From assembly GCA_015523195.1 (NCBI GenBank), contig WAKU01000025.1, positions 1-35,464 of the forward strand: 35,464 nucleotides of DNA, written 5' to 3'. The notes below the pieces were generated by a model that worked only from the letters and a program-made list of their open reading frames with translations, did not search any database and was not told the origin of the DNA. Positions 775 through 5,545 of this stretch are shown piece after piece. The DNA comes from Thermococcus sp. (GTDB lineage: Archaea > Methanobacteriota_B > Thermococci > Thermococcales > Thermococcaceae). Position numbers and translations under genes: made by a program. Within the stretch, counting starts at the first letter, position 1; every line of letters starts with the position of its first letter.

Positions 775-2718
775 ATGGCGAAGGTTACCGACATAGTGTT
801 GTGGGACAAACCCGGGGAGAGGGTTCTCCTCCTCGGAAACCACGCGATAGCAAGGGGAGCGCTCGAAGGCAACATAGCGGTTTTTGCCGCCTACCCCGGA
901 ACGCCGAGCTCAGAGCTTACCGACACGATGGCGGCAGTTGCAAAGAAGGCCGGCGTTTACATGGAGTACTCAACCAACGAGAAGGTGGCATTTGAGACAG
1001 CTTTGGCAGCGGCCTGGAGTGGCCTTAGAGCAATGACGGCAATGAAGCACGTTGGCCTTAACGTCGCCATGGACAGCTTCATGACGGCAAGCTACATGGG
1101 CGTTGACGGCGGGCTAATAGTTATGGTGGCAGACGACCCGAGCATGTGGAGCAGTCAGAACGAGCAGGACACAAGGGCGATAGCCAAGAACGCCGGGATT
1201 CCAGTTTTGGAGCCTTCGAGCGTTCAGGAAGCAAAGGACATGGTGAAGTACGCCTTCGAGGTGAGCGAGAAGTACGGCCAGATGGTGATACTCAGAACGA
1301 CGACGAGGAGCTCCCACATGCGCGGCGACGTCGTTCTTGGAGAACTGCCCGAGGAGATAAGAAAAGCCAAGAGAAAGTTCGGGAACTTCAAGAAGAACCC
1401 CGAGAGGTACGTTGACATACCCGCCTTCCAGAGGAAGAAGCACCCCTGGTTGCTCGAAACGGTGGAGAAGTTCCGCGAGGAGTTTAGCGAGAATCCCTTC
1501 AACTGGATTGAGGGCGATGAGAACGCAAAGGTGGGTATAATCGCTCCGGGCCTCAGCTACGCCTACGTGAAGGAGGCCTTAGCATGGCTCGGCGTCGAGA
1601 ACGTTAAGTTGCTCAAGCTCGGGACACCTTACCCGGTTCCCTACGGCCTGCTTGAGAAGTTCTTCGATGGACTTGAGAGGGTTCTCGTCGTTGAGGAGCT
1701 TGAGCCGGTCGTTGAGGAGCAGGTGAAGGTCTGGGCCTACGACAAAGGCCTGAGAATCCCAATCCACGGGAAGGACATCGTGCCGAGAGTCTTCGAGATG
1801 ACAACGAAAAGGGCTGTAGAGGCCGTAGCGAAGTTCCTCGGCATGGAAACGCCGATAGACTTTGAAGAGATAGACAAGAAGTACGAGAAGGTCTCAAAGA
1901 TAGTCCCGCCGAGGCCACCGAGCCTCTGTCCGGCCTGTCCGCACAGGAACACCTTCTACGCCATAAGGAGAGCCGCAACTCCAAGGGCCATATTCCCGAG
2001 CGACATAGGCTGCTACACCCTCGGTGTTCTTCCGCCGCTCAAGACCGTTGACACGACCATAGCGATGGGTGGCTCGATAGGAATGGCCCACGGCCTCGAC
2101 GTTGCTTTGAACGGCGTTCCGGGCGAGGAGGAGAGAAAGACCGGCAAGGAGAAGAAGATAATCGTTGCCACCATAGGAGACTCGACCTTCTTCCACACGG
2201 GCCTGCCAGCTTTGGCAAATGCCATCTACAACCGCTCCAACGTTGTCATAGTAGTCCTCGACAACCTCGTCACGGCAATGACGGGTGACCAGCCGAACCC
2301 CGGAACTGGAGACACCCCACACGGGCCTGGTAAGAGGATACTCATAGAGGAAGTCGCAAAGGCGATGGGAGCCGACTTCGTTAAGGTCGTTGACCCCTAC
2401 GACATAAAGGCGACGGAGAAGGCGATCAAAGAAGCTCTGGCCGTTGAGGGCGTAAGCGTCGTCGTTTCAAGGCAGCCCTGTGCACTCTACAGGATAGGCC
2501 AGATGAGGCGCGCTGGAGAGAAGTGGCCCATCTACCACGTCATCGAGGACAAGTGTACCGGCTGTAAGATCTGTATCAACGCCTACGGCTGTCCGGCGAT
2601 ATACTGGGATGCCGAGGCAAAGAAGGCCAAGATAGACCCGACGATGTGCTGGGGCTGCGGCGGATGTGCTCAGGTGTGTCCGTTTGGAGCGTTTGAGCCC
2701 ATGGAGGAGGGTGAGTGA
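775..2718 (+). CDS. iorA: Indolepyruvate:ferredoxin oxidoreductase alpha subunit
   Basis: 647 aa; TPP-binding [19 protein letters not shown] motif and C-terminal ferredoxin-like Cys clusters ([28 protein letters not shown]). Confidence 0.95.
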
Positions 2719-2719
2719 G

Positions 2720-3328
2720 ATGAGAGAGTATAACATCGTTATCACCGGAGTGGGCGGTCAGGGAATTCTCACGGCAGCAAACCTGCTCGGCTGGGCGGCT
2801 TTGAGGGCTGGCTATAAAGTCCGCGTTGGGGAAGTTCACGGCATGAGCCAGCGCTTTGGGAGCGTTATCGCCTACGTCCGCTTTGGCGAAGATGTTTACG
2901 GCGCGATGGTTCCCGAGGGGAAGACCGACGTCATACTCTCCTTTGAACCCGTCGAGGCTCTACGCTACATCAACTACCTTAAGAAGGGTGGCCTGGTCTT
3001 CACGAACGCTCGCCCGATTCCACCGGTTCAGGTCTCTATGGGACTCGCTACCTATCCGAGCTTAGAGGAGATGAGGAAGATCATTGAGGAGGACTTTGAA
3101 GGCAAGTTCATGGCCTTCGACGCTGAAGAACTGGCCCTAAAGGCAGGGAACATCGTTACCACCAACGTCGTCCTCATCGGGGCTTTAACCCAGACGCCGG
3201 GCTTTCCGCTCTCGGCCGAGCACGTAAGGGAAGTTATCAAGGTAAGCGTCCCGCCGAAGACGATAGATGTGAACATGAAGGCCTTCGATTTAGGGGTTAA
3301 GGCCGCGAAGGAGATGCTGGGGCTTTGA
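2720..3328 (+). CDS. iorB: Indolepyruvate:ferredoxin oxidoreductase beta subunit
   Basis: [24 protein letters not shown]..., start 1 nt after the iorA stop; 2-oxoacid oxidoreductase gamma-type fold. The ORF-track start at 2666 is upstream and overlaps iorA. Confidence 0.93.
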
Positions 3329-3399
3329 GAGCTCTCTTGTCCCTTTTTCCTTCCCTTAGTTGAGCCCTTTACTGCCCTTTATCTCGCGAAACCCTTATA

Positions 3400-3417
3400 A
3401 CTTACCCCTGGGTAAGT
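3400..3417. repeat. Inverted repeat ACTTACCC-CT-GGGTAAGT (site 1 of CTTAC-N6-GTAAG)
   Basis: Perfect 8-bp arms read directly; immediately downstream of the TATA-like cccttataa at 3392-3400. Confidence 0.85.
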
Positions 3418-3437
3418 AACTTACGGTGGGGTAAGTT
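3418..3437. repeat. Inverted repeat AACTTAC-GGTGGG-GTAAGTT (site 2)
   Basis: Perfect 7-bp arms; runs into the TTG start codon (3436-3438) of the ATPase gene; centre is 19 bp from site 1. Confidence 0.85.
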
Positions 3438-4542
3438 GCTGTTCGACCTTCGCCCAAAAACCAAGCGGGCTGACCTGTACGATAGGGAGAAGGAACTGAG
3501 GGAGTTTCAGAGCGCAGTGAACCTGGGTGAGGACCTGATCCTCCTGCTCGGCATAAGGCGCCTCGGGAAAAGCTCCCTCCTAAACGTTGCGCTCGCGGAA
3601 TCGGGATTCCCGTATGCAAAAATCGACGTCCGCTCCCTCTACTTCACCCACGGCTCAATACCTCAAGGGATTCTTGCCCGAAAAATCCTTGATTCCCTCC
3701 TCGCAACTGTCTCGGGACGTAAATCACTAAGACTTAAGCTTGAAAAGGTTTTGAGCTCCATCCGCGGGCTGAGGGTTTCGGGCCTGAGCGTGGAGTTCGA
3801 GAGGAAACCCGACCTTGCAGAAATTCTTGAAAAGATAAGCTCATGGGCCGAGAACGAGAACCTAAGGGCGATAATTGCCTTCGATGAGGCCCAGTACCTC
3901 AGGCTTTCGGGGATTCGCTACGACGGCCTGATAGCTTATGGGGTTGATAGCCTTCCCGGGATAACCTTCGCGCTAACTGGCTCTGAGGTGGGAATGCTCC
4001 ACGACTTCCTTGGCCTTGAGGACCCCAAAAAACCCCTCTTTGGCAGATACGCGAGGGAGATAGTGCTTCAAAGGTTCAGGCGGGAGGAGAGCATGGACTT
4101 CCTCAGAAGGGGTTTCGAAGAGGTCGGCATCAAACCGAGTAGGCAAGAGATCGGGGATGCCGTTGGGAGGTTCGACGGCATAGTCGGCTGGCTCACGATG
4201 TACGGTTATCTCCGCGGGGTTAGAAAGCTTCCCCATGCCCAAGCTATGGACGAACTCTTCAACATGGCCGAAAAGCTAATCCGGGGGGAGCTTTCGTCCC
4301 TTATTAGGAACAGCAGGAGGTACGGGGTTATATTGAAGGCAGTCGCCATGGGAAACGTTAGGTGGAGCACCATAAAGGAGTACGTGGAGTTCAAGATGGG
4401 GCCCGTAAACGACGCAAAGTTCTCCGTCCTCCTCAAGAACCTCCTCAAGTACGGCTACCTTGAAAAGAAAGGAAACGAGTATTCAATCCCAGATCCGGTC
4501 GTTAAGGAAGTCGTGAAGAACCTTCAACTTACCCCCCGGTAA
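3436..4542 (+). CDS. Archaeal ATPase_2/STAND-like P-loop ATPase with C-terminal winged-helix-like region
   Basis: MLFDLRPKTKRADLYDREKELREF N-terminus, Walker A LGIRRLGKSSLLN, Walker B-like LRAIIAFDEAQYL; the family is expanded in Thermococcales and Methanocaldococcus. Confidence 0.85.
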   Translation: MLFDLRPKTKRADLYDREKELREFQSAVNLGEDLILLLGIRRLGKSSLLNVALAESGFPYAKIDVRSLYFTHGSIPQGILARKILDSLLATVSGRKSLRLKLEKVLSSIRGLRVSGLSVEFERKPDLAEILEKISSWAENENLRAIIAFDEAQYLRLSGIRYDGLIAYGVDSLPGITFALTGSEVGMLHDFLGLEDPKKPLFGRYAREIVLQRFRREESMDFLRRGFEEVGIKPSRQEIGDAVGRFDGIVGWLTMYGYLRGVRKLPHAQAMDELFNMAEKLIRGELSSLIRNSRRYGVILKAVAMGNVRWSTIKEYVEFKMGPVNDAKFSVLLKNLLKYGYLEKKGNEYSIPDPVVKEVVKNLQLTPR

Positions 4543-4543
4543 T
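4528..4543. repeat. Third CTTAC-N6-GTAA(T) inverted repeat, containing the ATPase stop codon
   Basis: CTTACCCCCCGGTAAT; inner arms TTACC/GGTAA are perfect; shares AACTTACCCC with site 1. Confidence 0.75.
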
Positions 4544-5545
4544 CTACAGCTCCCACCACTGCTCTTGTGCCTCTTTTACGGCCGAGACCGTCCTTAGAGC
4601 CTCATAGGAAGGTGTAACCGGGACTTCCCTTATCTCCCCCGACAGGTAGCCCTTGATGAATGCCGGCAGGCCTTTGTCGAGGCCTACTGAATAGCCGCCC
4701 TCGAAGATTACAGCGAGCGGATAGCGAGAGAGCGTTGAGCCGGCGTAGGCAAAGAAAACCTCGCTTAACCTGAGTGTCGTCAGGTTCTCGCCGAGAAAGC
4801 CGTCGAAGCCGGCCGAGATGACGATGAGCTCTGGCCTGAACTGGACTATCACCTGGAGGACGATTTCGTTCCATGCATAGATGTAGTCATCATCTCCGGC
4901 GTAGTGGGGCATCGGGATGTTGATCTTCGTCCCCTCTGCCCTCCTGCCCCCGACCTCGTATTCGTACCCGCTCATCGGGTAGATGTCGCGCTCGTGGAGG
5001 TCTATGTGAACGGCCTTTTCATCGTTCCACAGTATCTCCTGTGTGCCGTTGCCGTGGTGGGCGTCGAAGTCTATAACAAGAACCTTCCCGAGCTTCTCCT
5101 CCGCGATCTTGGCGGCGTAGGCAGAGTTGTTGAAGATGCAGAAGCCGAGCGTCGGTGCCCCCAAGGCCCTCCCGTTTCTGCCCGCGTGGTGTCCGGGAGG
5201 TCTGACAAGGGCTAAGTAAAGCCCTTTCCTCTCAACTGCCAGTTCAACTGCTCTTCTTGATGCCCCAAAGGCGGTGAGGGAAGCCTTCCACGTTCCTGGG
5301 GAAACGTAGGTGTCCGGGTCGAGGTGGGAGAAGTCCCTGCTCATATCCTTCACGAGCCTGACGTAGTCCTCACTATGAACCCTGAGCAGTTCATCCTCCT
5401 GAACCGGCCCCGGTTCGATCGGCTCCCAGAGGCCGGCGCTCTTAAGGGTGTTGACGGCCCTCAAAAGCCTCCCCGGGTTCTCGGGGTGGTACTCCTTTGG
5501 CCTGTGCTCGAGGAAAGCGGGTGAATAGAGGACTCCAAACCCCAC
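4544..5545 (-). CDS. Histone deacetylase-fold (HDAC/acetylpolyamine amidohydrolase superfamily) protein
   Basis: RPPGHHAG, DFDAHHGNGTQEI, SAGFDGF and FEGGYS motifs. Confidence 0.9.
   Translation of the reverse strand: MGFGVLYSPAFLEHRPKEYHPENPGRLLRAVNTLKSAGLWEPIEPGPVQEDELLRVHSEDYVRLVKDMSRDFSHLDPDTYVSPGTWKASLTAFGASRRAVELAVERKGLYLALVRPPGHHAGRNGRALGAPTLGFCIFNNSAYAAKIAEEKLGKVLVIDFDAHHGNGTQEILWNDEKAVHIDLHERDIYPMSGYEYEVGGRRAEGTKINIPMPHYAGDDDYIYAWNEIVLQVIVQFRPELIVISAGFDGFLGENLTTLRLSEVFFAYAGSTLSRYPLAVIFEGGYSVGLDKGLPAFIKGYLSGEIREVPVTPSYEALRTVSAVKEAQEQWWEL

Follow-up and report, generated by a model that had tools for sequence, protein, structure and literature searches.

Class-specific palindromes as putative self-operators of a STAND-like ATPase family in Thermococcaceae

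In a 35,464-nucleotide stretch of a Thermococcus genome (contig WAKU01000025.1; hereafter the window), a gene encoding an ATPase_2-family protein lies between palindromes of the form CTTAC-N6-GTAAG, two ahead of its start codon and one at its stop. From comparisons of sequence across the family we propose, with a probability of roughly 0.8, that these palindromes are operators bound by the gene's own ATPase, which would repress its own transcription, and that each class of related ATPases uses an operator word of its own. We found no description of these operators or of such a system in the literature searched, an earlier report being possible among subscription papers, which lay mostly outside that search.

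The ATPase gene and its palindromes

The first-pass annotation of this locus had described three palindromes, the upstream two centred 19 bp apart, the second running into the TTG start and the third containing the stop codon, with AACTTACCCC present at both outer edges and the ATPase stop lying 1 nt from that of the convergent HDAC-like gene; each of these observations holds, coordinates included (Table 1). The BRE/TATA promoter is kept in orthologues, while the DNA further upstream is not. The core of the inner 5′ dyad, GGTGGGG (3425-3431), also resembles a Shine-Dalgarno sequence, a layout repeated in paralogues; such double duty would explain why the inner core is asymmetric when the cores of the outer 5′ and 3′ palindromes are nearly symmetric.

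Table 1. Features of the ATPase locus, in positions of the window
Feature	Position	Strand	Basis or remark
iorB	2720-3328	+	Upstream neighbour; marks the site
BRE/TATA promoter, CGAAACCCTTATAA	3387-3400	+	Sequence; directly abuts the first palindrome
Outer 5′ palindrome (putative operator), CTTACCCCTGGGTAAG	3401-3416	+	Motif match
Inner 5′ palindrome (putative operator), CTTACGGTGGGGTAAG	3420-3435	+	Ends just before TTG at 3436
ATPase_2-family ATPase gene, 368 aa, TTG start	3436-4542	+	Pfam, AF2, fold match
C-terminal winged-helix domain, residues 294-350	4315-4485	+	Pfam and AF2
Predicted recognition helix, residues 326-339, first residue Asp326 (4411-4413)	4411-4452	+	AF2; covariation
3′ palindrome, CTTACCCCCCGGTAAT	4528-4543	+	One mismatch; includes stop codon TAA at 4540-4542
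HDAC-like gene	4544-5545	-	Convergent neighbour, ORF ending at 4544; marks the site

We tested the specificity of the palindromes by pattern search. CTTAC-N6-GTAA yields five strand-matches in the window against 0.07 expected, a number reached by none of 100 shuffles; with two mismatches allowed, the motif in the window is not significant (8 matches versus 10.3 expected). Allowing up to three mismatches, we find the tandem-pair pattern in 55 of 94 family genomes and, when it is reversed, in none, and a chance origin of the palindromes is rejected by the shuffled and reversed-pattern controls. In most orthologues the full unit carries two palindromes at each end, 19 bp apart, the 3′ pair beginning at the stop codon. 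A single 3′ palindrome with one or two mismatches is found in the window and in three close relatives (L070, L079 and L088); the window's 3′ site is a decayed single copy, in a clade that has lost one of its two 3′ copies. Two loci depart from the usual arrangement in other ways: one (L105, genome G016, 180-233) has a third 3′ palindrome, all three standing in tandem at a pitch of 19 bp, and in the other (L109, genome G090, 2634-4984) the orthologous ATPase gene is split by ~1.27 kb of inserted DNA and the palindromes are decaying.

The gene product is an archaeal STAND-like ATPase with the ATPase_2, or SSO1545-PABY2304, fold. It scores 41.7 bits (1.6e-10) against Pfam PF01637 (ATPase_2), above the curated cut-off of 33.2, and the Pfam search also detects an MCM_C winged helix (2.7e-8). 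Its AF2 model (mean pLDDT 94) is matched best, over its whole length including the C-terminal winged helix, by the solved folds 2qen and 2fna, followed by Orc1/Cdc6, RuvB and NB-ARC proteins. Invariant G39, G44 and K45 together with D150-E151 supply a P-loop and a Walker B motif in one chain with the winged helix, the combination expected of STAND NTPases, and NB-ARC proteins are among the fold matches. Pfam, the AF2 model and the fold search revealed no recombinase, transposase or nuclease domain in the encoded protein, and the PADLOC defence model PDC-S27 gave weak partial matches only (best 3.5e-5). The family is widespread in archaea, being present in 47 of 111 genera in a sample of one phylum, often in multiple copies, and we found no function for it in the accessible literature. 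Two homologues (L306 and L328) sit on contigs labelled as Thermotoga and Thermosipho MAGs, through either transfer or misbinning; L306 carries an operator-type palindrome pair.

Putative operator words and the predicted recognition helix

The Thermococcaceae homologues that we fetched fall into about twelve classes, with paralogues 36-54% identical. Nearly all of the large classes have class-specific dyads of ~16 bp between the TATA box and the start codon, which, as expected of operators, overlap the core promoter and start region and are conserved in orthologues. The half-site is CTTAC in class 0, to which the window's ATPase belongs, GTATC in class 1, CTTAY in class 2, ACTACT in class 3, CTTGC in class 5, GTAAC in class 6 and CTATC in class 7; class 4 has a single dyad, CACCAGTAACTGGTG. 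Classes 8-10 are small and fit more poorly, and in classes 4, 8, 9 and 10 one long palindrome or ill-fitting sites are found, not the 19-bp pair. Tandem dyads at 19-bp pitch occur at 67 of 81 Thermococcaceae genes and 16 of 43 other archaeal genes, compared with 3 of 805 control windows, and pitches other than 19 bp reach at most 5. The layout is common to homologues in Thermoproteia, Desulfurococcales, Hadarchaea, Bathyarchaeota, Thermoplasmata, Caldarchaeum and others.

Scanning all 8-residue protein windows of 43 representatives by partial Mantel test, with ATPase-domain divergence removed, we find that half-site identity is tracked best by windows in residues 323-332 (starts 325, 323 and 324; partial Mantel 0.32-0.35, 0 of 2000 permutations). 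The top-ranking combination among 1830 residue/base pairs joins residue 326 to the first base of the half-site: Asp or Glu accompanies C in 17 of 18 cases and Asn accompanies G in 13 of 13 (Fisher 7e-8). Because the code was discovered by scanning, the fair test is that of held-out loci, in which Asp goes with C in 10 of 11 and Asn with G in 14 of 14 (10 of 10 without near-copies), or 20 of 21 in all once near-copies of the first set are set aside. Relatedness among the sequences limits independence, and the independent pairs, concordant in four of four (p = 0.125), are too few for significance alone. Class 3 and one further locus (L370) obey the code only with a shifted register.

These patterns suggest how the system might work. 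The C-terminal winged helix of the ATPase would bind the palindromes flanking its own gene; since the 5′ pair fills the space from TATA box to start codon and so covers both the Shine-Dalgarno sequence and the expected start of transcription, such binding should make the ATPase a repressor of its own gene, with release perhaps governed by a nucleotide state or ligand sensed by the ATPase module. Each paralogue class would read its own word, which should keep the several copies in a genome from regulating one another, although the half-site alone does not explain the insulation of class 0 from class 2, both of which have CTTAC-like half-sites. Autoregulation by the product, one of two readings offered in the first-pass annotation, thus appears strongly supported by dyads that are class-specific yet fixed in place, by a geometry held across phyla and by covariation with the recognition helix; as that annotation required, the motif recurs in orthologues, and paralogues have it with half-sites that differ. 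Nor did convincing targets emerge elsewhere: a wider regulon is unsupported, the five exact CTTAC-N6-GTAAG matches inspected away from ATPase genes all being isolated single sites in seemingly coding sequence. A code as simple as one residue, 326, for the first base of the operator opens to experiment a family for which we found no assigned function, and its classes would form a natural collection of distinct, heat-stable DNA-binding switches.

It is common for archaeal repressors to bind dyads located downstream of the TATA box, a placement that would equally suit an unlinked regulator, of MarR or Lrp type for example, with the ATPase not binding at all. A separate protein, however, would not be expected to follow paralogue identity, and the half-site changes with ATPase class and recognition helix, held-out sequences included; we consider an unlinked regulator very improbable. 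It is barely credible that the palindromes are instead RNA hairpins, serving in a 5′ UTR or as a terminator. The inner palindrome could indeed fold into a stem whose loop holds the Shine-Dalgarno sequence, and the 3′ palindromes do come after the stop codon, but the outer palindrome, adjoining the TATA box, should be largely upstream of the transcript, no T-run is present downstream of the 3′ sites, and the conserved 19-bp pitch and the helix code are signatures of DNA binding.

3′ sites, scars and the question of mobility

Under the preferred reading, binding of the ATPase to its own operators, cognate 3′ sites at the stop codon may permit looping or act as a roadblock in the classes that have them, class 0 among these. 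Such a site is found at the stop in 22 of 27 class 0 genes against 15 of 1023 control windows, in 3 of 14 class 2 genes and in 3 of 8 class 5 genes; inspection by eye adds all ten class 4 genes (L137 with one mismatch) and loci L282, L349 and L350, and 3′ sites also occur in class 10 (2 of 2) and in one Bathyarchaeota locus (L345). None was found at the stop in classes 1, 3, 6 and 7, and the idea that 3′ sites are essential is rejected. At three class 2 loci (L125, L126 and L128) a gene of ~260 residues, for which no confident Pfam family was found, lies between the ATPase gene and the distal palindrome pair, as does a PIN-domain gene in L125.

Full units, scars and clean empty junctions are all observed between iorB and the HDAC-like gene. 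Empty sites, whose existence the first-pass annotation had left to be checked, are thus present, and most orthologues keep the 3′ copy. The inspected genomes of g13 and g14 in which iorB adjoins HDAC have clean junctions, G116 excepted, and the iorA/iorB tree implies at least 9 changes between full and scar and 7 between palindrome-bearing and clean. Two scars (L098 and L096) retain the promoter and outer 5′ palindrome, now joined to the 3′ spacer and the outer 3′ palindrome, and in L098 the left flank is 95% identical to that of a full locus (L080). Class 4 shows the same pattern, with the gene absent between two palindromes in a solo locus (L249) whose left flank is 96% identical to that of a full one (L143), and with at least six full/solo changes on the tree; solo palindrome pairs occur in class 2 as well. 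We compared scar contexts with the neighbouring genes in classes 0 and 4, and in less detail in class 2. The 3′ and 5′ sites would serve as direct repeats, and recurrent deletion of the gene between them would leave a palindrome behind as a scar: deletion at short direct repeats accounts well for the scars, and the gene appears to have been lost time and again at its own palindromes. Scars so precise and recurrent raise the question of why loss falls exactly at the operators.

Other genes are found at these homes too. A class 8-like ATPase gene occupies the class 4 home, beside a solo class 4 palindrome, at four loci (L193, L259, L261 and L265). In about ten genomes an McrBC-like pair, a restriction ATPase and a second gene, lies between iorB and the ATPase gene, so that this junction resembles a small defence hotspot; the pair was examined in detail in L070 alone (L070:1626-5001) and has the same place in other loci where iorB is ~4 kb from the ATPase gene.

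The other reading in the first-pass annotation was a compact mobile cassette with the palindromes as its ends. In such a cassette the paired palindromes would serve insertion and excision, with either the ATPase itself or, in trans, a recombinase of the host acting on them. Some observations point that way: three states at one site, scars that in two classes coincide exactly with the palindromes together with the repeated full/scar changes counted above, the gene in G116 within an otherwise empty clade, two further loci with class 0 copies in genus g12, and an ATPase tree in conflict with the iorA tree (G003 grouping with G061, and G024 and G077 with G005, G034 and G036). Against it, most classes keep one fixed chromosomal home, with a few other loci in use (relocated copies are those of g12 and parts of classes 2, 5, 7 and 8), and scars that retain an orphan promoter are explained by loss. 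Homology runs past the palindromes in G116 and g12, where the copies have no 3′ repeats, so the terminal repeats do not mark the boundaries of insertion; relative to the empty junction, G116 has ~60 bp extra upstream of the promoter. The predicted fold contains no recombinase or nuclease, nor does the protein include the transposase or recombinase of an insertion sequence, and carriage by plasmids or phages finds no homologue among those catalogued, apart from one partial viral contig. We therefore judge the cassette unlikely. Relocations and tree conflict together show transfer, with gains rare; Thermococcus is capable of natural competence and homologous recombination, which could explain it. 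Quite unlikely, too, is a single-gene excisable element, in which the ATPase would bind both ends of its gene, join them and promote its own excision with no recognised recombinase encoded in the element, possibly re-inserting at solo palindromes.

Comparison with known systems

The ATPases described here have their closest counterparts in SSO1545 (PDB 2fna) and PABY2304 (PDB 2qen) of PF01637, which share the full-length fold of the window's ATPase (TMq 0.82-0.83) and clear sequence homology; for neither did the literature searched yield a paper on operators, on autoregulation or on a recognition code. Cdc6/Orc1 initiators and NB-ARC STAND proteins (Roq1 and CED-4), the next-best folds, likewise carry a winged helix behind a P-loop module, and DNA binding has been demonstrated for an NB-ARC protein (PMC4599002). 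Whereas these proteins work at origins or serve as signalling switches, each paralogue class here has an apparent private site around its own gene. Stf76 of the Sulfolobus plasmid-virus pSSVx (PMC4027180) is an archaeal winged-helix protein that binds two sites in its own promoter but, at 76 residues and without an ATPase domain, differs from the window's ATPase. Type Ia ParA (PMC8465637), an example of the autoregulated DNA-binding ATPases, is an ATPase regulating its own operon at its own promoter, the role that we propose here; unlike ParA, the window's ATPase has no ParB-like partner gene noted beside it, and its family combines cognate sites at the 3′ end with distinct operator words for many paralogues.
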